Shown here piece after piece: positions 41,639 through 63,690 of a stretch of 64,000 nucleotides of DNA. Origin of the DNA: Agrococcus jejuensis (lineage in GTDB: Bacteria > Actinomycetota > Actinomycetes > Actinomycetales > Microbacteriaceae); the NCBI RefSeq assembly GCF_900099705.1, contig NZ_LT629695.1, forward strand, positions 1,798,001 to 1,862,000. Reading direction: 5' to 3'. Position numbers and translations under genes: made by a program. A model generated the notes under the pieces. The model saw nothing but the letters and a program-made list of their open reading frames with translations, made no database searches and was not told where the DNA came from. The first letter of the stretch is position 1; each line of letters begins with the position of its first letter.

Positions 41639-41687
41639 CCCGCACCTCCTCGTGCCTCGCATCCCGCCGTCGTGGCGTGGATTCGAT

Positions 41688-41725: not shown

Positions 41726-41765
41726 GGCGGAGCACGCCAGCCCTACCCGAACCCGGAGGTCGACG

Positions 41766-46831: not shown

Positions 46832-46941
46832 CCGCTCCTCGAGGTGCGAGCGGAGCGAGCCTCGAAAGGTGCCCACGGGCTGACGTCAACCGGAGGGACC
46901 CTTCGAGGCTCGCCCTTCGGGCTCGCACCTCAGGGAGCGGT
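46832..46941. repeat. palindromic repeat family B, copy B5
   Basis: About 110 bp; gctcctcgaggtgcgagcg and gggctcgcacctcagggagc, with inner gcctcgaaagg / cccttcgaggc. It starts 20 nt after A4. Confidence 0.87.
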
Positions 46942-47008
46942 GGTGGGCGTCCCCCGAGGCGTCGCCGTCGTCTCGGGACGCCATCTCGCGCGCCACCGCG
47001 CGGCGATT

Positions 47009-47026
47009 CCGACAACCGCTTGCCAA
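47009..47026. promoter_or_regulatory. LacI-type operator O1 of the uronate regulon
   Basis: ccgacaaccgcttgccaa matches the 18-bp consensus TTGGCAANCGNTTGNCAA in inverted form. No -10 follows at the right distance, so it is likely auxiliary. Its centre is 55 bp from that of O2, about five helical turns, suitable for looping. Confidence 0.6.
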
Positions 47027-47063
47027 CCAGCGAGGGCGCGGAATCCCGCCACGCCGACGAGTT

Positions 47064-47103
47064 TTGGCAAACGGTTGCACAAACGACGACGCGCCCGTAC
47101 GCT
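47064..47103 (+). promoter_or_regulatory. operator O2 and promoter of the TIM-barrel/Gfo/Idh operon
   Basis: Operator ttggcaaacggttgcaca (47064-47081) contains the -35 TTGCAC (47075-47080). After 17 bp comes -10 TACGCT (47098-47103), putting the start near 47110. The same operator-to-promoter geometry recurs at 58103 and 60924. Confidence 0.7.
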
Positions 47104-47162
47104 CGGGGCATCCGGTCATGGCGGCCGGCACCTACCCCGACGACGTGGAGGCTCGAGCAGCG

Positions 47163-48005
47163 ATGACGACGACGACCTGGACGCTCTCCGGATTCGGCGA
47201 CGAGATCGATCCCGATCCTCGCATCCAGGTGGCCGTCCTCCAGGCGCTCGGCGCTCGTGCGATCGAGGTGCGCAGCGCGTGGGGCGTGAACGTCGTCGAG
47301 CTCGACGACCAGCAGCTCGAGGAGCTCGCGGGCATCCTCGAGACCGCCGGCATGACCGTCTCGGCCGTCGCCTCGCCGATCGGCAAGGTGCCGCTCGACG
47401 CCCCCATCGCGGACGAGGTCGCGCGGCTCGAGCGCATCGTGCGCGTCGCCCACCGCCTCGGCGCCCGCTTCATCCGCGTCTTCAGCTTCTACCCCGCCGA
47501 GGGCACCGATCCCGACGACGCGCACGACGCGACCGTCGCATCCATGCGCGCCCTCGCCGACACGGCCCACGCGGCGAACCTCGTGCTGCTGCACGAGAAC
47601 GAGAAGGGCATCTACGGCGACACCCCCGAGCGCGTGCACGCGATGGTCACGGCCGTCGACTCGCCCGCCCTGCGCCTCGCGTGGGACAGCGCGAACTTCG
47701 TGCAGGTCGGCGTCGAGCACCCGCACGACGACGGCTGGGCGCTGCTCGCCCCCTACGTCGACTACCTGCAGGTGAAGGATGCGCTCGCCGCGACCGGCGA
47801 GGTCGTGCCCGCGGGGCAGGGCCAGGGCCAGGTCGCGAAGACCGTCGCCGCCCTGCGCGACGCCGGCTACGAGGGCTTCGTGTCGCTCGAGCCGCACCTG
47901 GCCGAGGGCCACGAGCTCGGCGGCTTCTCGGGGCCGTTCGCGTTCGGCGATGCGGCGCGCGCGCTGCACGCCATCGCCGACGAGGCGGGGATCGCGCTGC
48001 GATGA
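47163..48005 (+). CDS. TIM-barrel sugar isomerase/epimerase-like protein
   Basis: A 280-residue xylose-isomerase-like TIM barrel (AP-endonuclease-2 fold): FGDEIDPDPRIQVAVLQALG, IEVRSAWGVNV, the metal-binding pattern LLHENEKGIYGDTPE, LAWDSANFVQVG and YLQVKDA, ending FVSLEPHL. Acidic and His ligands of the usual Mn site (E, D, H, E) are visible. Family members isomerise or epimerise sugars, or act as 3-keto-glycoside lyases. ATG 47163 gives the family N-terminus; an in-frame ATG at 47118 is possible. It is the first gene of an operon with two Gfo/Idh dehydrogenases. Confidence 0.85.
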   Translation: MTTTTWTLSGFGDEIDPDPRIQVAVLQALGARAIEVRSAWGVNVVELDDQQLEELAGILETAGMTVSAVASPIGKVPLDAPIADEVARLERIVRVAHRLGARFIRVFSFYPAEGTDPDDAHDATVASMRALADTAHAANLVLLHENEKGIYGDTPERVHAMVTAVDSPALRLAWDSANFVQVGVEHPHDDGWALLAPYVDYLQVKDALAATGEVVPAGQGQGQVAKTVAALRDAGYEGFVSLEPHLAEGHELGGFSGPFAFGDAARALHAIADEAGIALR

Positions 48006-49027
48006 GCACGGTGCGGGCAGCGGTGGTCGGCGTCGGCGACGTCTCGGTCGTGCACCTCGACGCCATCGTCGCGCGCGCAGGGTCGACCCTCGTGGCCATC
48101 GCCGACCGCGACCCCGTGCGCCGCGAGGCCGCCGCCGAGGCGTGGGGCGTGCCCGGCTACGCCGACGTCGAGTCGCTGCTCGAGACGGAGGCCGTCGACG
48201 TCGTGCACGTGTGCACGCCGCACGACCAGCACGAGCCCGTCGCGACCGCGGTGCTCGCGTCGGGCGCGAGCGTGCTCGTCGAGAAGCCGCTCGCCGACTC
48301 ACCCGCCGCCGCCCGTCGCCTCGCCGAGGCGGCCGAGCACAGCGCCGGCATCCTCGGCGTCACGTACCAGAACCGCTACAACGCGGCATCGCAGGCCGCG
48401 AAGGCGTTGCTCGAGCGCGGCGACCTCGGCGCCGTGCTCGGTGCCTCGGCCGTCGTGCACTGGCACCGCGCCCCCGCCTACTACGAGGCGGCGCCGTGGC
48501 GCGGCACGTGGGCCGGCGGCGGTGGCGGCCTGCTCATGAACCAGGCCATCCACACGCTCGACCTCGTGCTGTGGCTGCTCGGCCCCGCCGCGCGCGTCGA
48601 CGGCACCGCATCCACGCGCGTGCTGGGCGACGTCATCGAGGTCGAGGACACCGCCGACGTGCGCATCACCCACGAGTCGGGCGCGACGAGCATCCTCTCG
48701 GCCACGAACGCGCACGTGCGCAACGCGCCCGTGCGCATCGAGATCGTCACCGAGCACGCCGTGCTGCACCTCGAGCAGGGCCTCACCATCACCCACGCCG
48801 ACGGCCGCGTCGAGCGCGTCGACGAGCCGCCGCTGCCCACGGGCCCCCGCGGCTACTGGGGCGTCTCGCACCAGCTGCTCGTCGACGCCTTCCACGGCGC
48901 CGTCGAGCGCGGCGAGCCGTTCTGGATCGACGCGAGCGAGGGCCTGCCCGCGCTCGACGCCATCGCGGCCGTCTACGACCAGTCCTTCCCCCACCGACCC
49001 CAGACCACGCAAGGAGGCTCGCGATGA
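48002..49027 (+). CDS. Gfo/Idh/MocA family oxidoreductase (first)
   Basis: A 341-residue NAD(P)-dependent sugar dehydrogenase: cofactor fold AAVVGVGDVSVVHLDAI, VVHVCTPHDQHEPVA, the catalytic Lys in VLVEKPLADS, and the substrate-side motif GGGGLLMNQAIHTLDLVLWL with the conserved His. Overlaps on both sides (ATGA) show tight coupling to the TIM-barrel gene and the second Gfo/Idh gene. Such enzymes oxidise a sugar hydroxyl, often at C3 or C2/C1 of inositols or glycosides. Confidence 0.9.
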   Translation: MSTVRAAVVGVGDVSVVHLDAIVARAGSTLVAIADRDPVRREAAAEAWGVPGYADVESLLETEAVDVVHVCTPHDQHEPVATAVLASGASVLVEKPLADSPAAARRLAEAAEHSAGILGVTYQNRYNAASQAAKALLERGDLGAVLGASAVVHWHRAPAYYEAAPWRGTWAGGGGGLLMNQAIHTLDLVLWLLGPAARVDGTASTRVLGDVIEVEDTADVRITHESGATSILSATNAHVRNAPVRIEIVTEHAVLHLEQGLTITHADGRVERVDEPPLPTGPRGYWGVSHQLLVDAFHGAVERGEPFWIDASEGLPALDAIAAVYDQSFPHRPQTTQGGSR

Positions 49028-50190
49028 CCGCGACCGTCAGGATCGGCATCGTCGGATACGGCGCCCAGGGCCGCATGTACGCCGGCTTCATCGCCGAGGG
49101 CAAGGTGCCGAGCATGGTGATCGGCGCCATCGTCGACACTGACCCGGCCGTGCGCGCGAAGGCCGCCGCCGAGCATCCCGACGTGCCCGTGCTCGAGTCG
49201 CTCGAGGCCCTCATCGAGGCGGGCATCGCCGACGCCGTCGTCACGACCGTGCCGCACTACCTGCACCCCGAGATGGGCATCGCCGCCCTCGAGGCCGGCC
49301 TGCACGCGCTCGTCGAGAAGCCCGCGGGCGTCTACACGCGCCAGGTGAAGCGCCTCAACGAGCTCGCCGCATCCAAGCCCGAGCTCACGTTCGCGATCAT
49401 GTTCAACCAGCGCAACAACCCGCTGTACCGACGCCTCAAGGAGATCGTCGACGCCGGCGAGATCGGCGCCATCCGCCGCACGAACTGGATCATCACGACC
49501 TGGTGGCGCCCGCAGGGCTACTACGACCAGTCGGAGTGGCGTGCGACGTGGGGCGGCGAGGGCGGCGGCGTGCTCGTGAACCAGGCGCCGCACCAGCTCG
49601 ACCTGTGGCAGTGGATCTGCGGCGTGCCGAAGTCGGTCTACGCGAAGGTCGCATACGGCTTCCGCCGCGACATCGCCACCGAGGACGAGGTCACGGCCGT
49701 CGTCGACTACGGCGACGGCGCCACGGGCGTCTTCGTCACGGCGACGCACGACCTCGTCGGCACCGACCGGTTCGAGATCCTCGGCGACAAGGGAAAGATC
49801 GTCGTCGAGGGCTCGAAGACCGCCACGGTCACGCGCCTCGTCGACGACGAGCGCACCCTCAGCGAGGGCATGACGATGGAGCACGTCGTCGGCATGTTCC
49901 GTGGCGAGTTCGACCCGACGACCCTGTACACGCAGGAGACCATCGAGTTCGAGTCGGTCTGGGGCGGCCAGCACGCCGGCGTGCTCGAGAACTTCGCCCA
50001 GGCCATCCTCGGCGGCGAGCCGCTGCTCGCGCCCGGCGCCGACGGCATCGCGGGCGTGCGCCTCGCGAACGCGATCCACCTCTCGAGCTGGACGGGCCGC
50101 GAGGTCTCGCTCGACTTCGACGAGGACGAGTACCTGACCGAGCTGAACAGCCGGATCGAGCAGGAGGGACGGTTCGCAGCACGAGCCTGA
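49024..50190 (+). CDS. Gfo/Idh/MocA family oxidoreductase (second)
   Basis: A 388-residue paralogue: IGIVGYGAQGRMYAGFI, VVTTVPHYLHPEMGIAAL, catalytic Lys in LVEKPAGVYTRQV, IMFNQRNNPLYRRLKEIV and GGGVLVNQAPHQLDLWQWICG. The C-terminal domain has an extra segment (EDEVTAVVDYGDGATGVFVT, QETIEFESVWGGQHAGV). It could work in the opposite direction to the first dehydrogenase, closing an oxidation-cleavage-reduction cycle. A 121-bp gap with a palindrome separates it from the ABC genes. Confidence 0.9.
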   Translation: MTATVRIGIVGYGAQGRMYAGFIAEGKVPSMVIGAIVDTDPAVRAKAAAEHPDVPVLESLEALIEAGIADAVVTTVPHYLHPEMGIAALEAGLHALVEKPAGVYTRQVKRLNELAASKPELTFAIMFNQRNNPLYRRLKEIVDAGEIGAIRRTNWIITTWWRPQGYYDQSEWRATWGGEGGGVLVNQAPHQLDLWQWICGVPKSVYAKVAYGFRRDIATEDEVTAVVDYGDGATGVFVTATHDLVGTDRFEILGDKGKIVVEGSKTATVTRLVDDERTLSEGMTMEHVVGMFRGEFDPTTLYTQETIEFESVWGGQHAGVLENFAQAILGGEPLLAPGADGIAGVRLANAIHLSSWTGREVSLDFDEDEYLTELNSRIEQEGRFAARA

Positions 50191-50283
50191 CCGGCAGGCG
50201 CCCCACCTGCAGGCGCCTGCACCCGCCGCTCGCCACCCCGGCGACCGGCACGGCGATCGAAGGGGTCGCCACATCCCCACGAC

Positions 50284-50298
50284 GCAACGACGCGTTGC
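50284..50298. promoter_or_regulatory. short palindrome before the Dpp-type transporter genes
   Basis: Perfect inverted repeat GCAACG-acg-CGTTGC, ending 2 nt before the AGGAG of the binding-protein gene. It could be an operator or an mRNA hairpin near the ribosome site. It does not match the regulon consensus. Confidence 0.4.
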
Positions 50299-50311
50299 AC
50301 AGGAGTGAACC

Positions 50312-51841
50312 ATGAAGAGCACTGCACTGAAGGCGGGCGCCGTCGGCGTCGCAGCCACGCTCGCGCTCGCCGGATGCGGCGGCGGAGGAGGAGGCGGCGG
50401 CGCCGCGGATCCGTCGGGCGCGACCCTCTCGATCGGCATGACGAACGACGTCATGGACTGGGATCCGGGCCAGGCGCACGTCGGCCACCTGCTGCAGCCG
50501 TACCAGGCGGCGTACGACACGCTCATCCTGCGCGAGCCCGACGGCGAGTACTCGCCGATGCTCGCCACCGAGTGGGAGTACGACGACACGAACACGGTGC
50601 TCACGATGTCGCTGCGCGACGACGTGACGTTCAGCGACGGCGAGCAGTTCGACGCGGATGCCGTGGTCGCCAACCTCGAGCACTTCCAGGCAGACAACGG
50701 TCGCCAGGCGGCGCAGCTGCGCTCGTTCGCGGGCGCCGAGGCGATCGACGCCACGACGGTCGAGATCACGCTCACGCAGGCCGACCCGGCGTTCGAGTAC
50801 TTCCTGAGCCAGGCGGCAGGCCTCATGGGCAGCCCCGCAGCGCTCGACGGCGACGAGATCGGCGCCGTGCCCGTGGGCAGCGGCCCGTACGTCATGGACA
50901 CCGCCGCGACCCAGGCCGGCTCGCAGTACGTCTTCACCCCGCGCGAGGACTACTGGAACCCCGACCTGCAGCTGTTCTCGAGCATCACGTTCCGCCCGCT
51001 CGTCGACGTCACCGCCCGCGTCAACGCCCTCGCCTCCGGCCAGGTCGACGCGACGATCGTCAACGCCCCGTCGGTCGCGCAGCTCGAGGGCTCCGGCTTC
51101 ACGCTCGTCGCCCAGCCCGTCGACTGGAGCGGCCTGCTGCTCTTCGACCGCGACGGCAGCATGGTGCCCGCCCTCGGCGACGTGCGCGTGCGCCAGGCGA
51201 TCAACTACGCCGTCGACCGGCAGACGCTGCTCGACGCCGTGCAGCTCGGCTACGGCGAGACGACGGCGCAGCCGTTCGGCCCCACCACGGGTGCGTTCGA
51301 CGAGGAGCTCGAGGACGCGTACCCGTACGACCCCGAGCGGGCGCGCGAGCTGCTCGCCGAGGCCGGCTACTCGTCGGGCGTGACCATCCAGGTGCCGTCG
51401 GTGGGCCAGTTCGAGTCGTACATCGCGGCGCTGCGCCAGCAGCTCGGCGACGTCGGCATCACGCTCGAGCCCGTGCCGATCCCCGACCAGGAGCTCGTCA
51501 CCGAGATCTCCAGCGGCGACTACCCCGTGGGCCTCTTCCAGATGTTCCAGGGCGAGCCGTGGGTCGCGATCCAGCAGATCATCTCGACCGACGCGCTCTA
51601 CAACTCGCGCGACTCCATGACGCCCGAGCTGCAGGCGCTCATCGACGCCGTGCAGGCGGCGCCGACGCCTGAGGAGAGCGACGCGGCGGCCCAGGAGGTC
51701 AACCGGTACGTCGTGGAGAACGCGTGGTTCGTGCCCGTGTTCCGCCCCGACCAGCTGTACTTCGTCGACGCCGACATCACGGTGGAGCCGCAGATCCAGA
51801 TGGCCGTGCCCTCCATCTACAACTTCGCCCCGGCGAGCTGA
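50312..51841 (+). CDS. ABC transporter substrate-binding lipoprotein, family 5
   Basis: A 509-residue DppA/OppA-type binding protein: lipobox LALAGC followed by a run of eight glycines, then LSIGMTNDVMDWDPGQ, MLATEWEYDDTNTVLTMSLR, the family motif VPVGSGPYVMD, and VRVRQAINYAVDRQTLLDAV. Family-5 proteins bind peptides or, in many actinobacteria and Thermotogae, oligosaccharides. The location inside a sugar-dehydrogenase and uronate regulon favours a glycoside or uronide. AGGAG lies 8 nt before ATG. Confidence 0.92.
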   Translation: MKSTALKAGAVGVAATLALAGCGGGGGGGGAADPSGATLSIGMTNDVMDWDPGQAHVGHLLQPYQAAYDTLILREPDGEYSPMLATEWEYDDTNTVLTMSLRDDVTFSDGEQFDADAVVANLEHFQADNGRQAAQLRSFAGAEAIDATTVEITLTQADPAFEYFLSQAAGLMGSPAALDGDEIGAVPVGSGPYVMDTAATQAGSQYVFTPREDYWNPDLQLFSSITFRPLVDVTARVNALASGQVDATIVNAPSVAQLEGSGFTLVAQPVDWSGLLLFDRDGSMVPALGDVRVRQAINYAVDRQTLLDAVQLGYGETTAQPFGPTTGAFDEELEDAYPYDPERARELLAEAGYSSGVTIQVPSVGQFESYIAALRQQLGDVGITLEPVPIPDQELVTEISSGDYPVGLFQMFQGEPWVAIQQIISTDALYNSRDSMTPELQALIDAVQAAPTPEESDAAAQEVNRYVVENAWFVPVFRPDQLYFVDADITVEPQIQMAVPSIYNFAPAS

Positions 51842-51846
51842 TCCCC

Positions 51847-51877
51847 GCGGGGCGGTGCCGCCCAGGCGCCGCCCCGC
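51847..51877 (+). terminator. intercistronic hairpin after the binding-protein gene
   Basis: 13-bp stem (gcggggcggtgcc / ggcgccgccccgc, one G-T pair) with a 5-nt loop, 6 nt after the stop. It probably acts as a partial terminator or 3' stabiliser, giving more binding protein than permease. Confidence 0.65.
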
Positions 51878-51910
51878 ACCCACCATGACCGCATCGACGA
51901 AGGGGTCGAC

Positions 51911-52852
51911 GTGCTGACCTTCACCCTGAAGAGGCTCGGATCGGGCGTGCTGCTGCTCGCCGTGATCAGCGCCATCGCCTACGCGCTGCTGTTCGCCTCC
52001 GGCACGAACATCGCGCGCAACATCCTCGGCGAGACCGCCACCGAGGAGCAGGTGCTGCTGAAGCAGCAGGAGCTCGGCCTCGACCGACCGCTGTGGGAGC
52101 AGTACGGCGACTGGGTCACCTCCGCCATCACGGGCGACCTCGGCCGCTCGTGGTTCGGCGCCGAGACCGTCGCCGGCGCCGTCGCCTCGCGGCTGCCCGT
52201 GACGCTCACGCTCATCGTCGCGGCCATCCTCCTCACGGCCCTGCTCGCCACCGCGCTCGGCGTCACCGCCGCCGTGAAGCGCGGATGGGTCGACCGCACC
52301 CTGCAGGTGTCGGCCGTCGTCGGCGACGCCATCCCCGGCTTCGTGCTCGCGATCGCCCTCGTGTTCGTCTTCGCGCTGCAGCTGCGGCTGCTGCCCGCCA
52401 TCTCCACGATCGCGCCGGGCGCGGGAGCCCAGGCGTGGATCACCTCCCTCTCGCTGCCGATCATCGCGATCGTCGTCAACGCCGTCACGTCGAGCGCGCA
52501 GCAGATCCGCTCGGCCGTCATCGCCCAGTACGAGCGCGACTTCGTGCGCACGCTCCGCAGTCGCGGCCTCGGCGAGCGCGAGATCCTGCTGAAGCACGTG
52601 CTGCGCGGCGCCTCGCCCGCCGGCCTCACGGTGCTGAGCCTGCAGTTCATCGGCATGCTCGGCGGCGTCGTGATCATCGAGCGCATCTTCGCGATCCCCG
52701 GCATCGGCAACCTCGCCGTCACCGCGACGCAGGTCGGCGACGTGCCCATCGTCATGGGCGTCGTGCTCTACACCGTCGTGATCGTCGTCATCGTCAACCT
52801 GCTCGTCGATCTGCTGAACGGCTGGCTCAACCCGAAGGTGCGTGTCGCATGA
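51911..52852 (+). CDS. ABC transporter permease (DppB type)
   Basis: A 313-residue permease with six helices. N-terminal LKRLGSGVLLLAVISAIAY, LGLDRPLWEQYGDWV and the EAA-like loop TLRSRGLGEREILLKHVLRG are typical of DppB/OppB. The GTG start is preceded by AAGGGG. It overlaps the next gene by 4 nt. Confidence 0.92.
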   Translation: MLTFTLKRLGSGVLLLAVISAIAYALLFASGTNIARNILGETATEEQVLLKQQELGLDRPLWEQYGDWVTSAITGDLGRSWFGAETVAGAVASRLPVTLTLIVAAILLTALLATALGVTAAVKRGWVDRTLQVSAVVGDAIPGFVLAIALVFVFALQLRLLPAISTIAPGAGAQAWITSLSLPIIAIVVNAVTSSAQQIRSAVIAQYERDFVRTLRSRGLGEREILLKHVLRGASPAGLTVLSLQFIGMLGGVVIIERIFAIPGIGNLAVTATQVGDVPIVMGVVLYTVVIVVIVNLLVDLLNGWLNPKVRVA

Positions 52853-54690
52853 CCTCCGCTCTCGACGGCCTCACCGACGCCGCCACCTCGTCGGTGCGCC
52901 CGCACATCCTGCGGCGCCTGCTGCGCAACCCGCTCGCGGTCATCTCGTCGACGATCCTGGCGATCCTCTTCGTGCTCGCGCTCATCGGGCCGATGATCGC
53001 CCCGTACGGGCAGAACTTCGCCGACGTCGCCCAGCCGCTCGCCGACCCGTCGTCGGCGCACTGGCTCGGCACCGACTCCGCCGGCCGCGACGTCGTGAGC
53101 CGCCTGCTGTTCGGCACGCAGCTCACGATCCTCTCGGCCATAGTCTGCGCGGCCGTCGCCATCGCGATCGGCCTGCCAGCAGGCCTGCTCGCCGGCTACT
53201 ACGGCGGCCGCTTCGACGGCGTCGCCGGCTGGATCGCCGGCATGCTCATGAGCCTGCCGAGCATCATCGTGCTGCTCGCGGTGCGCTCGGCGCTCGGGCC
53301 GTCGGTGTGGATCAGCATGCTCATCTTCGGCATCATGCTGAGCCCCGGCTACTTCCGCCTCACCCGATCCGCGGTGCAGTCGGTGCGCGGCGAGCTCTAC
53401 GTCGATGCTGCCCGCGTCGCGGGGCTGTCGGATGCGCGCATCATCGCGCGCCACATCCTGTCGGTCGTGCGCGCGCCCATCATCATCCAGACGGCCATCG
53501 TCGTCGGCGTCGCGATCTCGATCCAGGCGGGCCTGCAGTTCCTCGGCCTCGGCGACCCGAGCGAGGCCAGCTGGGGCTCGATGGTCAACGACGGCTTCCG
53601 CAACCTGTTCAACGCGCCGGGCCTCATCGTGCCGCCCGTCGTGCTCATCGGCGCGACGATCGGTGCGCTCGTGCTGCTGGCCAACGGCATCCGCGACGCG
53701 CTCGAGGACCGTGCGAAGGGCAAGCGCAAGCGGTCGACGAAGGACATCGCGACGGGGGCGATCACGGTCGTGACGCCCGTGCAGCAGGCGGGCCGCGCGC
53801 CCGCCGTGGGCGACGAGGCGGCGCCGTCCGGCGACGAGCTGCTGCGCGTCGACGGCATCGGCATCGGCTACCGCAAGCCCGACGGCTCGCTCCGCACCGT
53901 CGTCGACGACGTGTCGTTCACGGTCGCACGCGGCGAGGTCGTGGGCATCGTCGGCGAGTCGGGCTCCGGCAAGTCGCAGACGGCGTTCGCGATCCTCGGG
54001 CTGCTGCCCGACGATGCCGAGATCGTCTCGGGCTCCATCGAGTTCGACGGCACCCGCACCCTCGCCGAGGGGCAGACGAAGGTCGACCAGTCGATCGTGC
54101 GTACCCTGCGCGGCAAGCGCATCGCGTACATCCCGCAGGAGCCGATGTCGAACCTCGACCCGAACTTCACCGTCGGGCACCAGCTCGTGCGGCCCCTGCA
54201 GGTCACGAAGAGGATGACCAAGGCGGCCGCGAGGGCGCGCGCGCTCGAGCTGCTCGCCATGGTCGGCATCAAGGATCCGCAGCGCACGTTCGACGCGTAT
54301 CCGCACGAGATCTCGGGTGGCATGGCGCAGCGCGTGCTCATCGCCGGCGCCGTCGCCGGCGAGCCCGACCTCATCATCGCCGACGAGCCGACCACGGCCC
54401 TCGACGTGACGGTGCAGGCCGAGGTGCTCGACGTGCTGCGCGACCTGCAGCACCGCCTGGGCATGGGCATGGTGCTCGTGACCCACAACTTCGGCGTCGT
54501 CGCCGACATCGCCGACCGCGTCGTCGTGATGCAGGCCGGCCGCGTCGTCGAGACCGGCTCCGTGCGCTCGGTGCTGCGCGAGCCCGAGCATCCGTACACG
54601 CAGATGCTGCTCGGGTCGATGCTCGAGGGCAAGGAGCCCATGACGCTCCTCACCGCCGATGGCGGACGCAGGGCAGGAGGCCCCCGATGA
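52849..54690 (+). CDS. fused DppC permease / DppD ATPase
   Basis: A 613-residue fusion. Residues 1-285 are a DppC-type permease (LRRLLRNPLAVISSTILAI, HWLGTDSAGRDVVSRLLFG, EAA loop DAARVAGLSDARIIARHIL). A charged linker (about 285-325) leads to an ATPase with Walker A GESGSGKSQ, signature EISGGMAQRVLIAG, Walker B LIIADEPTTALD and H-loop VTHNFG. The fusion is known in actinobacteria and fixes one permease:ATPase pair. The oligopeptide-specific C-terminal extension after the ATPase is short. Confidence 0.92.
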   Translation: MTSALDGLTDAATSSVRPHILRRLLRNPLAVISSTILAILFVLALIGPMIAPYGQNFADVAQPLADPSSAHWLGTDSAGRDVVSRLLFGTQLTILSAIVCAAVAIAIGLPAGLLAGYYGGRFDGVAGWIAGMLMSLPSIIVLLAVRSALGPSVWISMLIFGIMLSPGYFRLTRSAVQSVRGELYVDAARVAGLSDARIIARHILSVVRAPIIIQTAIVVGVAISIQAGLQFLGLGDPSEASWGSMVNDGFRNLFNAPGLIVPPVVLIGATIGALVLLANGIRDALEDRAKGKRKRSTKDIATGAITVVTPVQQAGRAPAVGDEAAPSGDELLRVDGIGIGYRKPDGSLRTVVDDVSFTVARGEVVGIVGESGSGKSQTAFAILGLLPDDAEIVSGSIEFDGTRTLAEGQTKVDQSIVRTLRGKRIAYIPQEPMSNLDPNFTVGHQLVRPLQVTKRMTKAAARARALELLAMVGIKDPQRTFDAYPHEISGGMAQRVLIAGAVAGEPDLIIADEPTTALDVTVQAEVLDVLRDLQHRLGMGMVLVTHNFGVVADIADRVVVMQAGRVVETGSVRSVLREPEHPYTQMLLGSMLEGKEPMTLLTADGGRRAGGPR

Positions 54691-55550
54691 CCAGTCCGCT
54701 GCTGACGGTCGACGAGCTCGTCGTCGAGTACCCGCGCAAGGGTCTGCGCGCCAAGCCCAACCGGGTGCTGCAGGGGGTCTCGATCGCGATCGAGGAGGGC
54801 AAGACCCTCGGGCTCGTGGGCGAGTCCGGCTCGGGCAAGACGACCCTCGGTCGTGCGCTGCTGGGCCTCGCGCCCGTCACGGGCGGCACGATCACGTTCG
54901 ACGGGCGCGACATCAGCCATCCGTCGCGTCGCGAGCGTCGCGCGCTGAGCCGCGACGTGCAGGTGGTGTTCCAGGATCCGTACTCGTCGCTCAACCCCGC
55001 GATGCCCGTCGGCGAGATCCTCGCCGAGCCGCTCGTCGTGCAGGGCATCGGCGGCTCGGAGGCGAAGGCGCGCATCGCCGAGCTGCTCGACCAGGTCGGG
55101 CTGCCGACGGATGCGTCGAGCCGTCTGCCGCGCGAGTTCTCGGGCGGCCAGCGGCAGCGCGTCGCCATCGCCCGCGCCCTCGCGCTGAGGCCGCGCCTGA
55201 TCGTGTGCGACGAGGCCGTCAGCGCCCTCGACCTGTCGACCCAGGCGCGCGTGCTCGACCTGTTCCTGCGCATCCAGCAGGACACGGGCGTCGCCTACCT
55301 CTTCATCTCCCACGACCTCGACGTCGTGCGCCACATCAGCCACGACGTCGCCGTGCTCAACCACGGCGTCATCGTGGAGCAGGGGCCGGCGAAGCAGGTG
55401 ACGGAGGATCCGCAGGACGCGTACACGAAGCGGCTGCTGCTCGCCTCGCCCGTGCCCGACCCTGATCGACAGGCGCAGCGTCGTGCCGAGCGCAAGGCGC
55501 TCATCGCCGAGACCGATGCGGCGCGGCTCGCGTCGGTCGACGCGGGCTAG
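54687..55550 (+). CDS. ABC transporter ATP-binding protein (DppF type, short)
   Basis: A 287-residue ATPase: Walker A GESGSGKTTLG, Q-loop VFQDPYSSLNPAMPVGE, signature EFSGGQRQRVAIARALAL, Walker B LIVCDEAVSALDLSTQ and H-loop ISHDLDVVRHIS. It is shorter than usual DppF (about 320-340) because the C-terminal oligopeptide extension is reduced. CAGGAGG precedes ATG 54687. It is the last gene of the transporter. Confidence 0.92.
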   Translation: MTSPLLTVDELVVEYPRKGLRAKPNRVLQGVSIAIEEGKTLGLVGESGSGKTTLGRALLGLAPVTGGTITFDGRDISHPSRRERRALSRDVQVVFQDPYSSLNPAMPVGEILAEPLVVQGIGGSEAKARIAELLDQVGLPTDASSRLPREFSGGQRQRVAIARALALRPRLIVCDEAVSALDLSTQARVLDLFLRIQQDTGVAYLFISHDLDVVRHISHDVAVLNHGVIVEQGPAKQVTEDPQDAYTKRLLLASPVPDPDRQAQRRAERKALIAETDAARLASVDAG

Positions 55551-55591
55551 CATGGACGCTGCTCTGCCAGGCGCGGATCGGAGGAGCGGGG

Positions 55592-56605
55592 ATGGCGACT
55601 GAGAAGCCGCGCCGCGCGTCGACGGCGCCCACCATCTACGACGTGGCCCGTCTCGCGGGCGTGAACCCGTCGACGGTGTCGCGGGCGCTCAACACCCCCG
55701 GCCGCATCAACGCGCGCACGGAGGAGAAGGTGCACGCCGCAGCCCGCGAGCTGCGCTACCGCTCGAACCCGATGGCGCGTGCCCTGCCGACGGGGCGCAC
55801 GTCGACGATCGGCCTCATCCTCTCCGACATCACGAACCCGATGATCGCCGGCATCGTGCGTGGCGCCGCGACGGCTGCGGATGCGCTCGGCTACACCGTG
55901 GTCATCGCGGAGTCGCAGGAGTCGCCCGAGCTCGAGTCACGCGCGACGGAGCGCATCGTCGCGAGCGTCGACGGCGTGATCCTCGCCGCGTCCCGTCTCG
56001 ACGACGCCTCGATCACGGAGCTCGCGGGCGAGAAGCCGCTCGTGCTCATCAACCGCGCCCTCGACGGCGTGGAGTCGGTGATCGGCGAGGTGCGCGCGGG
56101 CATCGAGGAGGCCGTCGCGCACCTGCAGCTGCTCGGCCACACGCGCATCGTGTACCTCGCGGGTCCGTCGACGTCGTGGATGAGCCGCCACCGCGCCGCG
56201 GTCATCCAGGACGTCGCGTCGGGTCGCGGCATCGACATCGAGGTCGTGGGCCCGAACGTGCCGACGCTCGAGGGCGGTGCGGCGACGCTCTCGCGGCTCG
56301 TGGCGATGGATGCGACGGCCGTGATGGCGTACAACGACGTCATGGCGATCGGCCTGCTGCGCGCCGCCGCCGAGCAGGGGTTCGACGTGCCGTCGCAGAT
56401 GAGCATCGTCGGCTTCGACGACGTCTTCGGCTCGGACTTCACGCATCCGCCGCTCACGACCATCCGCATGCCGCTGCTCGCGCTCGGCGAGCTGGCGGTG
56501 CACCGCATCCTCGAGGCCGTCGGCGTCGAGACGGCCACCGAGCCGGCTGCCGCCCCCATCGCGCAGCTCGTGGTGCGGGGCTCGACGGCGAGGCCTCGGG
56601 CGTAG
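55592..56605 (+). CDS. LacI family regulator, probable regulator of the uronate regulon
   Basis: A 337-residue repressor: helix-turn-helix TIYDVARLAGVNPSTVSRAL, hinge RYRSNPMARALPTGRTSTIG and sensor domain (ILSDITNPMIAGIVRGAATA, MAYNDVMAIGLLRAAAEQG, MSIVGFDDVFGSDFTHPPLT). It lies 41 nt after the transporter genes with its own GGAGGAG site and is the only LacI gene near the four operators, so it is the likely partner. The hinge lacks the usual LNxxA form at one position (SNPMARAL), still compatible with minor-groove insertion. Confidence 0.9.
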   Translation: MATEKPRRASTAPTIYDVARLAGVNPSTVSRALNTPGRINARTEEKVHAAARELRYRSNPMARALPTGRTSTIGLILSDITNPMIAGIVRGAATAADALGYTVVIAESQESPELESRATERIVASVDGVILAASRLDDASITELAGEKPLVLINRALDGVESVIGEVRAGIEEAVAHLQLLGHTRIVYLAGPSTSWMSRHRAAVIQDVASGRGIDIEVVGPNVPTLEGGAATLSRLVAMDATAVMAYNDVMAIGLLRAAAEQGFDVPSQMSIVGFDDVFGSDFTHPPLTTIRMPLLALGELAVHRILEAVGVETATEPAAAPIAQLVVRGSTARPRA

Positions 56606-56620
56606 GTCGTCGCACGAAGC

Positions 56621-56673
56621 GATGCTGAGCGGGCCTTCATCTGCATGTCGCGGATGAGGGCCCGCTCAGCATC
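56621..56673 (+). terminator. terminator-like hairpin, type C copy 2
   Basis: 21-bp stem with one mismatch: left arm gatgctgagcgggccttcatc, broken for length, against ggcccgctcagcatc; the loop carries tgcatgtcgcg. It is 15 nt after the lacI stop. Confidence 0.8.
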
Positions 56674-56695
56674 ATTCGGTGCGGTGATGCTCGCC

Positions 56696-56857
56696 CACCA
56701 ACTGGTCGAGGAGCGCGCGAGCCCTTGGGCGAGCACGCGTCACGAGACCACGCGAGCGCCGCTCCTGCCCGGCCATGCGCGTGGTCGCGTCGAGCGGGCA
56801 CGTCGCGTGGTCTCGTGACGGCTCCTCGCTGCGCTCGGGGCCTCCTCGACCAGCTGG
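56696..56857. repeat. palindromic repeat family A, copy A5
   Basis: About 162 bp; accaactggtcgaggag / cctcctcgaccagctgg outside, gtcacgagaccacgcga / cgcgtggtctcgtgac inside. Part of the 570-bp A5-B6-A6 island between two convergent genes. Confidence 0.88.
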
Positions 56858-56885
56858 GAGGGGGCCGCCCCGTCCCCAAGTCCGA

Positions 56886-56982
56886 TCGTTGAGGTGCGAG
56901 CGCAGCGAGCCTCGAAGCGATCCCCACCGAGGTCCGCGGTGCCCCTTTCGAGGCTCACTTCGTTCGCACCTCAAGGAGCGGT
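56886..56982. repeat. palindromic repeat family B, copy B6
   Basis: About 97 bp; gttgaggtgcgagcgcagc / cgttcgcacctcaaggagcg with inner gcctcgaa / cctttcgaggc. It sits between two A elements. Confidence 0.86.
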
Positions 56983-56998
56983 TGGGAAGGTCGGGCCC

Positions 56999-57164
56999 CC
57001 ACCAGCTGGTCGAGGAGCGCGCGAGCCCTTGGGCGAGCACGCGTCACGAGACCATGCGAGCGCCGCTCCTGCCCGGCCATGCGCGTGGTCGCGTCGAGCG
57101 GGCACGTCGCGTGGTCTCGTGACGGCTCCTCGCTGCGCTCGGGGCCTCCTCGACCAGCTGGTGG
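56999..57164. repeat. palindromic repeat family A, copy A6
   Basis: About 166 bp, nearly identical to A5 over its whole length, including the middle (gctcctgcccggccatgcgc). A5 and A6 are in direct orientation and are the most alike pair, so one is probably a recent copy. It ends 12 nt before the stop of the convergent gene. Confidence 0.9.
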
Positions 57165-57175
57165 CGAGCGAGGCG

Positions 57176-58033
57176 TCAGAACAGGTCGCCGAAGCCCATC
57201 GTCTGCAGGTTGTCGTACGACGTCTGCAGGCAGTCGAAGACGTCGCGGCCGTAGAGGTCGTCCTGCTCGACGAGCAGGTAGCGGGCGCCCGACTCGACGG
57301 CGGTGGGGATGATGCCGTGCCAGTCGAGGTTGCCCTCGCCGACCTCGCCGAACTGCACGACGGCGTTGAACGCGTCGTAGACGGCGCTGCGGTCGCCCTT
57401 CGACAGCGCGTCGAACACCTCGGGCGGCATGTGGCCGATGCGGTAGTCCTTCAGGTGCACCATCGACACGCGACCGGCGCGGGCGGCGATGGCGCGCTGC
57501 GGGTCGAGGCCGCCGCGCTGCAGCCAGTGCACGTCGAGCTCGAGGCCGACGGTGGGGGAGCGGTCGGCGATGATGTCGAGCAGGTAGGTGCCGTCGAACT
57601 TCACGAACTCGACGTGGTGGTTGTGATAGTGCAGCTCGATGCCCTCGTCGCGCAGTCGCGCGGCCATCCGCTCCGCCTCGTCGCAGAACTCGAGCACCTG
57701 GTCGAGGCTCGCGAGCGACGCGAGCGGCAGCATGCCGATGCGGATCATCGTCGAGTCGAGCGCCTTCGCGTCGGCGACGATCTTGTCGAAGCGCTCCGAG
57801 AGGGAGTCGTTGCCGACGACCTGCGGCCCGACGGTCGCAGAGAGCGCAGCCATCTCGACGCCGAGCTCGTCCTTCGCGCGAGCGAGCTCGGTGACGTTTT
57901 CGGGCGTCATGGGGATCTGCGACACCTCGATCGCTCCGTAGCCGATCTCGCGCACGCGCCGCAGGGCCTCGTACGCTCCGTGCTCCTCGACCGCGCCCTT
58001 GAGCATCATCGCCTGCACGCCGATCTTCGCCAT
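57176..58033 (-). CDS. sugar phosphate isomerase/epimerase-like TIM-barrel protein
   Basis: A 285-residue xylose-isomerase-like barrel: IGVQAMMLKGAVEEHGAYEA, AIEVSQIPMTPENV, the metal ligands in LHYHNHHVEFVKFDG, LELDVHWLQRGG and MVHLKDYRIG, ending LLVEQDDLYG. The Glu/Asp/His/Glu metal site of the family is complete. It resembles 3-keto-sugar or inosose-type isomerases more than true phosphate isomerases. GAGGAG precedes ATG 58033. It is divergent from uxaC across operator O3. Confidence 0.87.
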   Translation of the reverse strand: MAKIGVQAMMLKGAVEEHGAYEALRRVREIGYGAIEVSQIPMTPENVTELARAKDELGVEMAALSATVGPQVVGNDSLSERFDKIVADAKALDSTMIRIGMLPLASLASLDQVLEFCDEAERMAARLRDEGIELHYHNHHVEFVKFDGTYLLDIIADRSPTVGLELDVHWLQRGGLDPQRAIAARAGRVSMVHLKDYRIGHMPPEVFDALSKGDRSAVYDAFNAVVQFGEVGEGNLDWHGIIPTAVESGARYLLVEQDDLYGRDVFDCLQTSYDNLQTMGFGDLF

Positions 58034-58102
58034 CGCATCTCCTCGTGTCGCACGACCGCGCCACTGCGGTCGATGCTTCCACCTTGGCCCGAAAGCCGCA
58101 TT

Positions 58103-58148
58103 TTGGCAACCGGTTGACAAACGGATGCCGCGCGGCTTGAATCGGCAT
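58103..58148 (+). promoter_or_regulatory. operator O3 and uxaC promoter
   Basis: Operator ttggcaaccggttgacaa (58103-58120) is the best copy of the consensus. It contains a perfect -35 TTGACA (58114-58119). After 17 bp comes -10 TTGAAT (58137-58142), then six bases to GTG 58149. Repression would also reach the divergent TIM-barrel gene. Confidence 0.75.
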
Positions 58149-59567
58149 GTGCCGATGACGCTGCGCCTGGATCCCGACCGCCTGCTCCCCGTGGACCCCA
58201 CGACGAGGGAGGTGGCCAGGCGCCTCTATGCGCTCGTGGCCGGAGCGCCGATCGTCTCGCCGCACGGCCACGTCGACCCGCATCTGCTGCTCGACGACGA
58301 GCCCTTCCCCGACCCGGCGACCCTCTTCATCCGCTACGACCACTACGTCACGCGCCTGCTGCACGCCGACGGCGTCTCGTTCGCGACGCTCGGCGTGCCG
58401 GATGCGTCGGGCGCCGAGCAGGTCGGCGAGCCGCGCGAGGCGTGGCGCGCGTTCTGCAGCCGCTGGCGCCTCTTCGCCGGCACCGCATCGGGCTACTGGC
58501 TGGCCCACGCGTTCGGCACGCTCTTCGGCATCGACGAGCAGCCGAGCGCCGAGAACGCCGACGCGCTCTACGACCGCATCGCCGCGCAGCTCGAGCGCCC
58601 CGAGATGCGCCCCCGCGCCCTGTTCTCGCGGTTCGGCATCGACGTGCTCGCCACGACCGACGACCCCATGGACGACCTCGCGGCCCATCGGGCGCTCGCC
58701 GACGACCCGACGTTCTCGGGTCGCGTGCTGCCCACGTTCCGCCCCGACGCGTACATCGACCCGCTCGCGCCGGGCTTCCGCGACAAGGTCGCGGCCCTCG
58801 CCGCGTGGGGCGGCCACGCGGCCGACGACTACCCCGCGTACGTCGCGTCGCTCGAGGCGCGCCGCCGGCACTTCGTCGAGCACGGCGCCGTCTCGGCCGA
58901 CTTCGGCGTGCGCGAGCCGTACTCGATCGACCTCGGCGCCGAGCGCGCGGGCGAGCTGTTCGCGAAGGCCGTCGCCGGCACGATCGACGCCGCCGAGGCG
59001 CGCGACTTCCTGGGCCACATGCTGCTGGAGTCGGCGCGCATGAGCGTCGACGACGGCCTCGTCATGACGATCCACCCGGGCGTGCACCGCAACCACTCGC
59101 AGTCGACGTTCGACCGCTTCGGGCCCGACACGGGCCACGACATCCCCATCCCGGCCGAGTTCGTGCAGAACCTGCGTCCGCTGCTCGAGCGCCACGGCAA
59201 CGACCCGCGCCTGCACCTCGTGCTCTTCACGATCGACGAGACGACGTACTCGCGCGAGATCGCGCCGCTCGCGGGCTTCTACCGCTCGGTGTTCATCGGT
59301 GCCCCGTGGTGGTTCCTCGATGCGCCGGATGCGGTGCAGCGCTTCCGTGCCGCCGTGACCGAGACCGCAGGCTTCTCGCGCGGCTCGGGCTTCATCGACG
59401 ACACGCGCGCGTTCCTCTCGATCCCCGCCCGCCATGACATGAGCCGCCGCCTCGACGCCGCGTTCCTCGCGCGCCTCGTCGCCGAGGGTCGCCTCGACGA
59501 GGAGTCGGCGGCCGAGATCGTCGTCGACATGGTCGGCGCGCAGCCCAGGAAGGTCTTCCGCCTGTGA
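58149..59567 (+). CDS. uxaC: glucuronate isomerase
   Basis: A 472-residue uronate isomerase: it interconverts D-glucuronate and D-fructuronate (or galacturonate and tagaturonate), the entry step of hexuronate breakdown. Visible: the metal-binding start [57 protein letters not shown] with the conserved His/Arg, and [17 protein letters not shown] at the C-terminus. GTG 58149 fits a leaderless start six bases after the -10; ATG 58155 is the alternative. It overlaps the fructuronate reductase by 4 nt. Confidence 0.95.
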
Positions 59568-60961
59568 CCGCTCTCACCCGCGCCTCCGCGCGCGCCGGCG
59601 CTCCGGCACCCGTGCGCATCGTGCATCTGGGCCTCGGCGCCTTCCACCGCGCGCACCAGGCCTGGTACACGGCGAAGGCCGAGGATGCGGGCGAGTGGGG
59701 CATCGCGGCGTTCACGGGCCGTCGGCCCGACGTGGCGGATGCGCTGCGCCCGCAGGGCGGCGCGTACACGCTGCTCGAGCGCGGGCCGGATGGCGACGCG
59801 GCCGAGACGATCGGCAGCATCGTGGAGGTGTGGCCGGGCGACGACGTCGCGCGGCTGCGCGAGCTCGTGGCCCGCGAGGCCGTGGCGATCGTGTCGCTCA
59901 CGATCACGGAGCCCGCGTACCGGCTGCGCGCCGACGGCTCCGCCGACCTCGACGACGCCGCGGTCGCGGCCGACGTCGCGGCGCTCGCCGCGGGCACCGA
60001 CCCGTCGACGCCGCTCGGCCGCCTCGTGGCCGCGCTCGACGCGCGACGCCGCGCCGGCGCGGGTCCGATCGCGGTCATGCCGTGCGACAACATGCCGAAC
60101 GCCGGCGGCAACGTGCACGCGGCGCTGCAGGCCATCGCCTCCGCTGCCGGCCTCGACGAGACCGCCGCGTGGATCGCATCCGACGTCGCGTGCGCCTCCT
60201 CGAGCGTCGACCGCATCACGCCCGCGACGACCGACGCCGACCGCGCCGAGGTCGCGCGACTCACGGGCCTCGACGACGCCTCGCCCGTCGTCACCGAGCC
60301 CTTCCGCGACTGGGTCGTGCAGGGATCCTTCCCCGCCGGCCGCCCCGTGTGGGAGACCGCGGGCGCGCGCTTCGTCGACGACGTCGAGCCCTTCGAGCGC
60401 CGCAAGCTGTGGCTGCTCAACGGCTCGCACTCGCTGCTCGCCTACCGCGGCCTGCTCGCGGGCCACGCGACCGTCGCGGAGGCGATCGCCGACCCCGTGC
60501 TGCGCGCCGAGGTGGATGCGTGGTGGGGCCTCGCGGGCGAGCACCTGCCCGCCGGCCTCGACCTCGCGGCGTACCGCGCCGCGCTCGTCGCCCGCTTCGA
60601 GAACGCCCGCATCGAGCACCGTCTGCAGCAGATCGCGGCGGAGGGCGTCACGAAGCTGCGGGTGCGGTTCGTGCCCGTGCTGCTCGCGGAGCGCGAGCGC
60701 GGCGGCGACGCGTCGAACGGCGCCGTGGCGATCGGCGCGATCGCGGCGTGGGTCGCGCTCGTGCTCGACGGCGTGCAGCTCGTCGACGGCCGTCGTGCCG
60801 AGGTCGAGACGGCCATGGCGTCGGCGACCCCCGTGCGCGACCTGCTCGCGCTCGTCGAGCCCCGGCTCGCGGCCGACGCATCCATCGTCGAGGCGGTCGA
60901 GATCGCCGCCTCCGAGGCCCGTTCTGGCAATCGCTTGCCAACCGTGCCGGAACTTGCTTGA
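59564..60961 (+). CDS. uxuB: mannitol dehydrogenase family protein, probable fructuronate reductase
   Basis: A 465-residue long-chain polyol dehydrogenase: [20 protein letters not shown] at the cofactor site, [18 protein letters not shown], and the catalytic block [19 protein letters not shown] with the conserved Lys and Asn-x-x-His. Next to uxaC and manD it most likely reduces D-fructuronate to D-mannonate with NADH. The GTG start overlaps uxaC. Its last codons contain operator O4, so the coding end doubles as control DNA for the next gene. Confidence 0.9.
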
Positions 60962-60963
60962 CT
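60924..60963 (+). promoter_or_regulatory. operator O4 and internal promoter of the GPH transporter
   Basis: Operator ctggcaatcgcttgccaa (60924-60941) lies inside the 3' end of the fructuronate reductase gene. Its right arm holds -35 TTGCCA (60935-60940); 17 bp later is TTGACT (60958-60963). Confidence 0.68.
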
Positions 60964-61018: not shown

Positions 61019-62446
61019 ATGAGCGACGCGACGACGCGCCTCACCAGGCTGCAGATCGTCGGCTACGGCGCCGGCGACGCGGCGAACAACCTCGCGTTCA
61101 CGACCGCGACGATGTTCCTGCTCGTCTACTACACCGATGTCGCCGGCATCGGCGCCGCGGCCGCGGGCACGCTGCTGCTCGTCGTGCGCATCTTCGACGC
61201 GTTCGCCGACGTCTTCGCCGGCCGCGTCGTCGACCGCACGTTCACGAAGCGGTTCGGCAAGTTCCGCCCGTTCCTGCTCTTCGGCTCGCTGCCGCTGCTC
61301 ATCCTGAGCTTCCTCACGTTCAACGTGCCGCAGATCGGCGAGACGGGCATGCTCATCTACGCGTACCTCACGTACGCCGCGCTGGGCCTCGCCTACAGCC
61401 TCGTCAACATCCCCTACGGCTCGCTCGCCGCGGCCATGACGCAGACGGCCTCCGAGCGCGCCCGCCTCTCGGGCGCCCGCACGATCGGCGCCGTCGTCGT
61501 CGGTGGCGGCCTGGGCATCTTCGTCGCGCCGCTCATCACGCCCGAGCGCGACCTGCAGACGATCTTCACCGCCATGACGCTCGGCTTCGTCGTCGTCGGC
61601 TTCGCCCTCTACCTCTTCACGTTCTTCACGGCTCGCGAGCGCGTGCAGCGCGACGTGCCCAAGGTGTCGATGCGGCAGAGCATGCGCGTGCTGCGCACCA
61701 ACCGGCCGCTCATCATGCTGTGCGGCGCCGCCTTCCTCTTCCTCACCGGCATGCTCGCGATGAGCACCGTGCAGCTGTACTACCTGCGCGACGTGCTCGG
61801 CGCCATCGAGCTCTACGCGTTCGTCGCGATCGTGCAGATCGCCGGCACCTTCGGCATCGGCGCCCTGCTGCCGCGCATCGTGCGCGCCATCGGCAAGCGC
61901 GCCGGCTTCCTCATCGGCATGGCCGTCGTCGCCGTCGGCGGCGTCACGGCGGCGCTCGCGCCCGCATCCATCCCGGGGCTCGGCTTCACGGGCATCGCGA
62001 TCGCGACGCTCGGCGTGAGCTTCAGCGGCATGCTGCTGTGGGTGCTCGAGGCCGACACCGTCGAGTACGGCGAGTGGCAGACGGGCGTGCGCGCCGAGGG
62101 CATCACGTACGCGCTGTTCTCGTTCACGCGCAAGACCGGCCAGGCCGTCGGCGGCGCCCTCGCGGCCTACGCGCTCGCGATCGGCGGATACGCGGCGGGC
62201 GCGGGCGAGCAGTCGTCGAGCGCCGAGTGGGGCATCCGCATCGCCGTCGGCGGCATCCCCGCCGTCATGGCCGTGCTCGCCGCGAGCCTCATGGCGATCT
62301 ACCCGCTCACCGACGCGAGGCACCGCGAGATCGTCGCGGAGATCGCCGAGCGCCGCGCCGACACCATCGACCCCGTGCTCTCGACCGCCGCGTTCGCGAC
62401 GCGGTCGGGCACGACCACGCCCCCGACGAAGGAGACCAGGGCATGA
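61019..62446 (+). CDS. GPH-family MFS transporter, probable uronate/uronide importer
   Basis: A 475-residue glycoside-pentoside-hexuronide type cation symporter with twelve helices: [39 protein letters not shown], the signature region [20 protein letters not shown] with FGKFRPFLL, and [15 protein letters not shown]. The position within uronate genes suggests it imports glucuronate or a glucuronide. AGGAG at 61006-61010 precedes ATG 61019. The C-terminal 30 residues are Thr-rich. Confidence 0.9.
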
Positions 62447-63690
62447 CCATCGAATCCGCAGAGGTGCTCGTCTCGAGCCCCGGTCGCAACTTCGTGACCC
62501 TCCGCATCACGACCTCCGACGGCGTCACCGGCCTCGGCGACGCCACCGTGAACGGCCGCGAGCTCTCGGTCGTGTCGTACCTCAAGGACCACGTGGTGCC
62601 GCTGCTCGTCGGCCTCGACGAGCACCGCATCGAGGACACGTGGCAGTACCTCTACCGCGGCGCGTACTGGCGCCGCGGCCCCATCACGATGGCCGCCATC
62701 GCGGCCGTCGACACGGCGCTGTGGGACATCAAGGCGAAGATCGCCGGCCTGCCGCTGTACCAGCTGCTCGGCGGCCGCAGCCGCGAGGGCCTGCTCTGCT
62801 ACGGCCACGCCTCGGGCGCCGACCTGCCCGAGCTGTTCGACTCCATCCGCCACCACCAGGCCGAGGGCTACCGCGCCATCCGCGTGCAGACCGGCATCCC
62901 CGGCCTGCCGAACGTCTACGGCGTCGCGTCGAGCGCGAACTCGGCGACGACGGCCGAGGGCGTCACGGCCCGCTACGACCACGAGCCGGCCCGCCCGGGC
63001 TCGAAGCCCGTGGAGGAGTCGTGGGACACCCGCGCGTACATCCGCCACGTGCCCACCGTCTTCGAGGCCGTGCGCAACGAGTTCGGCCCCGAGCTGCCGC
63101 TGCTGCACGACGCGCACCACCGCCTCACGCCCATCCAGGCGGCGAAGGTCGGCAAGTCGCTCGAGCCGTACGACCTGTTCTGGCTCGAGGACGTCACGCC
63201 CGCCGAGAACCAGGCCGTGCTGCGCCGCGTGCGCGAGCACACCACGACGCCGCTCGCGATCGGCGAGGTGTTCAACACGATCCACGACTACCGCGAGCTC
63301 TTCGAGGAGCAGCTCATCGACTACGTGCGCAGCCCCATCACGCACGCCGGCGGCGTCACGGGTCTGCGTCGCATCTTCGACTACGCGTCGGTGTACCAGA
63401 TCAAGTCGGGCGTGCACGGGCCGACCGACGTGTCGCCCGTCGGCCTCGCCGCGGCCATCCACCTGGGCATCGCCATCCCGAACTTCGGCATCCAGGAGTA
63501 CATGCAGCACTCGGCGGCGACGCATGACGTGTTCCAGACGGACTACACGTTCGAGGGCGGCATGCTGAAGCCCGGCGAGGCCGCGGGTCTCGGCGTCGAG
63601 TACGACGACGTGGCGGGCGCCGCCCACGAGTACGCGCCGGCCTACCTGCCGGTGAACAGGCTCCTCGACGGGTCGATGCACGACTGGTGA
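62443..63690 (+). CDS. manD: D-mannonate dehydratase (enolase superfamily)
   Basis: A 415-residue ManD-type dehydratase, turning D-mannonate into 2-keto-3-deoxy-D-gluconate. It shows [38 protein letters not shown], the metal-ligand strands [23 protein letters not shown] and IGEVFN, and the family C-terminus [15 protein letters not shown] and [14 protein letters not shown]. It replaces the unrelated UxuA enzyme in the pathway. It overlaps the transporter gene by 4 nt. Confidence 0.93.

Follow-up and report, generated by a model that had tools for sequence, protein, structure and literature searches.

LacI-family uronate regulons have been described before: in the accessible part of a study that spanned 57 actinobacterial genomes, they comprise ExuR, KdgR, UxaR and UxuR in 6 orthologous groups, and the uronate examples named there are from Bacteroides (PMC4052901). 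In Thermotoga maritima, UxaR couples an oligouronate ATP-binding cassette (ABC) importer with uronate catabolism; this UxaR belongs to the GntR family and KdgR to the IclR family (PMC3750489), whereas the regulator considered here is of the LacI family. We analysed a stretch of 64,000 nucleotides from Agrococcus jejuensis (NZ_LT629695.1, positions 1,798,001 to 1,862,000; hereafter the window) in which four matching operators accompany a lacI gene, its product being called LacI 55592 after its first position. In common with the uronate regulons of PMC4052901, the locus has a LacI-family regulator, an even palindrome with a central CG and uronate catabolic genes; additionally, it holds genes for C3 oxidation and a family-5 ABC importer. 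LacI-type uronate regulons are already described, and the regulon here, real and functionally coherent, adds a member to that kind, with some unusual cargo. No paper on it was found in a literature search that lay outside RegPrecise and the supplements of PMC4052901, so that an entry for a relative is possible, and the accessible part of PMC5358740 (Clavibacter) does not concern this regulon.

A preliminary description of the window had proposed that four LacI-type operators tie the region into one uronate regulon. This proposal is supported in silico by the conservation and placement of the sites and by their co-occurrence and co-variation with LacI 55592, which very likely represses the genes for glucuronide use through the four operators, as one regulon. 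The sites are inverted repeats of one consensus and stand where the description had put them, with O1 and O2 55 bp apart. All four are even 18-bp palindromes with a central CG, and they are listed without strand (scores from the four-site matrix):

47009 to 47026, no strand: O1, the distal operator and the weakest of the four (20.9 bits)
47064 to 47081, no strand: O2, operator overlapping the -35 box of the first operon, with the asymmetric right half TTGCAC (23.3 bits)
58103 to 58120, no strand: O3, the strongest operator, between TIM2 and uxaC, containing TTGACA (27.3 bits; 0 mismatches to the consensus)
60924 to 60941, no strand: O4, operator in the 3' end of the reductase gene, upstream of the symporter gene (24.5 bits)

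The right halves of O2, O3 and O4 (TTGCAC, TTGACA and TTGCCA) are indeed followed after exactly 17 bp by TACGCT, TTGAAT and TTGACT. O4 lies, as had been said, within the 3' end of a gene that ends at 60961 on the + strand; the product name given to that gene, fructuronate reductase, comes from context only. Allowing up to three mismatches, the window gave 9 matches, namely the four sites on both strands (8) and a shifted copy at 58114, compared with a mean of 0.10 and a maximum of 2 in dinucleotide shuffles of the window. The reversed window reached a top score of 17.1 bits with the four-site matrix. Chance palindromes were rejected as an explanation by the shuffle counts and by the counts on reversed loci given below. 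Allowing up to two mismatches, matches in the genome (1 contig, 3.40 Mb) fell solely at the four operator places, and a backward control gave 0.

The genes of the cluster, including lacI at the position first claimed for it, are as follows:

47163 to 48005, + strand: TIM1, xylose-isomerase-like TIM-barrel protein (AP_endonuc_2; PF01261, 2.5e-30); start ATG 47163 picked because of GGAGG upstream
48002 to 49027, + strand: GFO1, Gfo/Idh/MocA oxidoreductase (PF01408; PDB relatives include 3q2i, 8tdi and DgpA)
49024 to 50190, + strand: GFO2, probable glucuronide-3-dehydrogenase (phmmer match to PDB 8tdi, "P2B11 Glucuronide-3-dehydrogenase", E 7.4e-136, residues 4-387)
50312 to 51841, + strand: family-5 solute-binding protein of an ABC importer (PF00496, 2.8e-68)
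51911 to 52852, + strand: ABC permease (PF00528)
52849 to 54690, + strand: ABC permease fused to an ATPase in a single frame (PF00528 at 108-289, PF00005 at 353-516)
54687 to 55550, + strand: second ABC ATPase (PF00005, 1.4e-33)
55592 to 56605, + strand: putative LacI-family repressor of the regulon (PF00356, PF13377)
57176 to 58033, - strand: TIM2, xylose-isomerase-like, divergent from uxaC (PF01261; PDB relatives 8bvk, 8tcs and 8tcd)
58149 to 59567, + strand: uxaC, glucuronate isomerase (NCBIfam PRK02925, 520.4 bits, cut-off 387; scored from ATG 58155, in frame with GTG 58149)
59564 to 60961, + strand: mannitol-dehydrogenase-family reductase, by context a probable fructuronate reductase (PF01232, PF08125)
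61019 to 62446, + strand: GPH-family glucuronide transporter, the symporter (NCBIfam PRK09848, 573.5 bits, cut-off 528)
62443 to 63690, + strand: ManD, D-mannonate dehydratase (NCBIfam ManoateDhtManD, 665 bits, cut-off 550)

The uronate catabolic set under the sites thus consists of uxaC and manD, both above NCBIfam cut-offs, and the reductase placed by context, whose NCBIfam scores were all far below the cut-offs. Beyond manD lie a small P-loop kinase-like frame and further genes.

Orthologues in relatives were assigned by sequence similarity and neighbourhood. Of 398 family genomes, 49 have a LacI orthologue at E <= 1e-80, counting the own genome, and relatives that have one include Schumannella soli (Microbacteriaceae). 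The exact pattern TTGNCAANCGNTTGNCAA occurred in 33 of the 398 genomes (backward control, 2), and the LacI gene was found in 28 of the 33 genomes with an exact site versus 21 of the 365 without. Among the five exact-site genomes outside the 49, G128 has a more distant LacI relative near uxaC. The nearest same-genus LacI is 69% identical, and its locus, L063, keeps the gene order together with sites before TIM1, uxaC and the symporter gene. For a wider count, 46 non-overlapping orthologue loci (908,490 bases; L110 overlaps L068) were taken from 45 genomes, that is 43 of the 48 other family genomes with LacI (5 left out) and two same-genus genomes, some loci being picked for having an exact site. 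With a matrix built from the window's four sites alone and a threshold of at least 20 bits, these loci gave 108 hits, compared with 3 on the same loci reversed, showing that the motif is rarer in control DNA. Of these hits, 91 lay within 320 bp upstream of a regulon-protein match, which here means whatever tblastn match to the 13 window proteins was kept, even a weak one. Conservation in orthologous loci held as well: at least one site stood near a regulon-gene homologue in 42 of the 46 (all except L072, L090, L094 and L101). By gene, sites were upstream of uxaC in 30/34, of TIM1 in 20/22, of the binding-protein gene in 14/23 and of the symporter gene in 10/15. With GFO2 in 21 of the loci against 34 for uxaC, the C3-oxidation part varies more. 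At the order level, a LacI match at E <= 1e-70 was found in 56 of 297 genomes. Nine such loci (L153-L161), from two other families, have retained both the motif beside uxaC and the recognition helix NPSTVSRAL, and in L158-L161, four of the nine, the C3-oxidation genes are kept as well; 20 order-level loci held 28 strong hits (reversed sequence, 0), 26 of them in L153-L161.

LacI 55592, a protein of 337 amino acids, carries PF00356 (58.3 bits, cut-off 27) and PF13377 (99.5 bits, cut-off 26.5), and shows the marks of its family, an N-terminal helix-turn-helix, a periplasmic-binding-protein-like core and an even operator with a central CG. Taking the core-matching sites close to regulon genes, we asked how often the operator's outermost pair is T..A, according to the first residues of the recognition helix. 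T..A was present in 163/244 half-sites for helices starting NP, 16/30 for SP, 0/24 for AP and 4/14 for AA, and, among the rare starts, in 0/2 for NA and 1/2 for SA. Comparison of NP, SP and DP helices with AP (AA, NA and SA left out) gave a nominal p of 4e-11, which is overstated, as AP helices occur in a few families and there is dependence among half-sites and among loci. Even so, there is a trend for the operator's outermost pair to shift with the first recognition-helix residue, as expected if LacI 55592 reads these sites.

Several observations weigh against this regulon as drawn or qualify the evidence for it. At up to three mismatches the genome gave 14 matches, the window's 9 and 5 at four unrelated places, and the backward control gave 10, so that this looseness is uninformative beyond the window. 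The locus is patchy, LacI at E <= 1e-60 being present in 3 of the 24 genomes of the genus, the own genome among them; the exact site is missing in 21 of the 49 family genomes with the LacI gene; and six same-genus genomes without that gene have 1-3 matches at up to two mismatches, as has the control pattern in several. Of the 108 strong hits in the 46 loci, 17 lay elsewhere, three of these 321-406 bp before the symporter gene, and the other 11 order-level loci (L162-L172) hold 2 strong hits, one of them in L172. That locus, which has an AP helix, shows a strong off-core hit starting TTGG before uxaC, outside the core filter of the co-variation count, and the co-variation itself tracks family lines and may reflect few independent changes. 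A plain sigma-70 scan of 46900-57300, covering the O1/O2 promoter with O3 and O4 outside it, gave no promoter. The promoter reading rests on comparison between genomes, where the -35 geometry at the operators is kept in the alignment of relatives. Finally, the consensus occurs in genomes without a recognised orthologue nearby, at L112 (beside a 31% LacI relative) and at L113, so that close motifs can evidently be used by other LacI proteins as well.

This last point would fit a different assignment, in which the sites are those of a different LacI-family regulator encoded in the genome and LacI 55592 binds elsewhere. LacI-family motifs resemble each other, and the genome has ten further matches to LacI 55592, one partial, at up to 36% identity. 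However, the recognition helix NPSTVSRAL of LacI 55592 differs from those of nine own-genome paralogues, the genome's sites at up to two mismatches are confined to this cluster, and across genomes the sites track LacI 55592 orthologues and, with exceptions, their recognition helix. Ownership by a paralogue was rejected on these grounds, and we regard it as improbable. Slightly less credible again is that LacI 55592 binds the sites as an activator or dual regulator and not as a simple repressor: the position of O1, upstream of the promoter, would suit an activator, but O2, O3 and O4 overlap the -35 box, a repressor position, and most LacI proteins repress. That the motif is a chance or promoter-sequence artefact, TTGNCA resembling a -35 box, is barely conceivable, since the right half does overlap TTGACA but the whole palindrome is conserved beyond that half, and the shuffle and reversed-locus counts given above speak against it.

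Repression of the cluster by LacI 55592 could then work as follows. A LacI 55592 dimer would bind TTGGCAANCGNTTGNCAA-type operators over the -35 boxes of three promoters and, once bound, block RNA polymerase. O1 and O2 would control the genes for oxidative glucuronide cleavage, the ABC importer and lacI itself, O3 would control uxaC and the reductase gene and probably also the divergent TIM2, and O4 the glucuronide symporter and manD. LacI would be released by a uronate or glucuronide-derived ligand, which would thereby turn on import, C3 oxidation and cleavage, and the isomerase route (glucuronate, fructuronate, mannonate, 2-keto-3-deoxygluconate) together. What this scheme infers is that LacI 55592 binds and represses, that it does so as a dimer, that lacI is co-transcribed, and which ligand and substrate are involved. 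O1 and O2 precede a gene run ending in lacI, and no terminator-like site was found in the 121-bp gap before 50312; a separate lacI transcript is possible, and a site stands directly upstream of lacI in 10 of the 46 relative loci. An operator before the binding-protein gene at 50312 was considered and rejected for the own genome, where the gap's best score is 1.5 bits; relatives L070, L074 and L080 do carry a site there. Operator control of KDPG aldolase was likewise rejected: the genome's only PF01081 match, at C1:1324345, is far from the four sites, and there is no operator within 2 mismatches at that gene.

The first operon probably cleaves glucuronides oxidatively, because GFO2 is close to the solved P2B11 enzyme. 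The similarity is near full length (residues 4-387), the next solved relative of GFO2 after 8tdi follows only at E 1e-32, and GFO1 is a more distant relative of 8tdi than GFO2 is. Nasseri et al. are said to have reported in Nature in 2024 an alternative glycan breakdown pathway of gut bacteria, with the P2B11 glucuronide-3-dehydrogenase. Compared with P2B11, the locus described here adds that the later steps, from uxaC to manD, share the operator motif. TIM2 is weakly similar to 8bvk, 8tcs and 8tcd, the latter two presumably from the same study as P2B11, and TIM1 is weakly similar to sugar 3-epimerases. In a search that did not extend to other glucuronidase families, the C-terminal domain of glycoside hydrolase family 2 was not found in the genome (5 of 14 control genomes have it). 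Since the regulon holds a glucuronide-3-dehydrogenase relative, it probably serves glucuronides as well as free uronate. After import, glucuronides would undergo oxidation at C3 and cleavage by a TIM-barrel enzyme; reduction would then yield glucuronate, the entry to the UxaC route.

The comparison of promoters also bears on the start of uxaC. Of 33 rows for the operator upstream of uxaC, 29 have TTGACA as the right half, often with a TTCAAT- or TTGAAT-like box 17-18 bp on. Among 31 of these rows (two with an operator over 120 bp away were left out), an in-frame ATG or GTG stood exactly 46 (13 genomes) or 47 nt (12 genomes) from the operator start in 25, own included, and in 11 of the 25 this codon was the sole in-frame ATG or GTG in nt 40-53. 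Such a start is some six bases beyond the -10-like box, at the distance where transcription should begin. A start codon fixed at the expected transcription start predicts a leaderless mRNA; thus, uxaC mRNA is probably leaderless, with GTG 58149 as its own start. The TIM1 promoter has a -10-like box TAGAGT in 8 of 22 rows with a leader after it, and the right half TTGCAC also precedes TIM1 in L063, L068, L069 and L077. A conserved leaderless start of the symporter gene was considered and rejected: the own genome does have an in-frame GTG (60971) near the predicted start, but none is fixed in nine aligned relatives.

In relatives, operator pairs occur before TIM1, the binding-protein gene, the symporter gene and elsewhere. 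Depending on the genus, the two operators of a pair are 45 to 119 bp apart. We took one spacing per genus and target, with both sites scoring at least 14 bits; this sample omits five pairs 23-24 bp apart, and for G003 keeps the spacing of 91 and drops that of 68. The resulting 25 spacings cluster near multiples of ~11 bp, with 49 and, twice, 104 off phase. The maximum R was 0.52, a value reached by 0.2-0.3% of smoothed or uniform nulls (nominal p ~0.003), although the period is only loosely determined, values of 10.5-11.5 being similar, and common ancestry makes the test weaker. Residues 14-335 of LacI 55592 align to 5-332 of 1jyf (Lac repressor), and the alignment stops at Lac repressor residue 332, two residues before the protein's own end, so that the C-terminal tetramerisation helix is absent. 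As LacI 55592 ends where the Lac repressor core ends, any bridging would be by dimers. GalR bridges paired operators as dimers, and the GalR and LacI operator pairs of E. coli likewise place two phased operators at one promoter; E. coli LacI differs in that LacI 55592 lacks the tetramer helix and that the spacings here vary between genera.

Taken together, these results lead us to suggest, tentatively and with far less assurance than for the regulon itself, that several Micrococcales families keep a glucuronide regulon that cuts by C3 oxidation and elimination instead of by a glucuronidase. In this fuller proposal, a single repressor, which has no tetramer domain and probably bridges pairs of helically phased operators, would couple import, oxidative cleavage and the isomerase pathway, with uxaC leaderless and its start codon fixed relative to the operator. 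For work on glucuronide use in Micrococcales, a gene set is now to hand together with an operator motif and a candidate regulator. The analysis further sets a glucuronide-3-dehydrogenase relative in a complete, apparently co-regulated pathway, making substrate and inducer directly testable, and LacI-family DNA recognition can be studied in the natural series that arises as an operator base changes with a helix residue across families.

A few further observations concern the locus and its relatives. The permease-ATPase fusion at 52849-54690 was matched as one piece in L063 and others too. An exact 32-bp repeat, CTTCGAGGCTCGCCCTTCGGGCTCGCACCTCA, occurs at 43714, 43845 and 46901, one copy being ~80 bp upstream of O1, and has 14 genome places at up to three mismatches. 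A second LacI gene, at 40820-41653 on the - strand, with the helix SRQTVSNAIN, is divergent from a glycogen-debranching-enzyme-like gene at 41724-43655. In G014, a same-genus genome without a LacI orthologue at E <= 1e-60, overlapping sites at L065:9897 and 9909 lie just upstream of a partial ManD match of 84% identity, and L113, which has no recognised orthologue close by, holds two perfect sites, at 9542 and 9597, 55 bp apart. Another genus has, in two of its genomes, a strong operator on a different contig (L108:9947 and L109:10101) upstream of an aldose-1-epimerase-family gene; this gene, which carries PF01263 in L108, is a candidate regulon member in trans.

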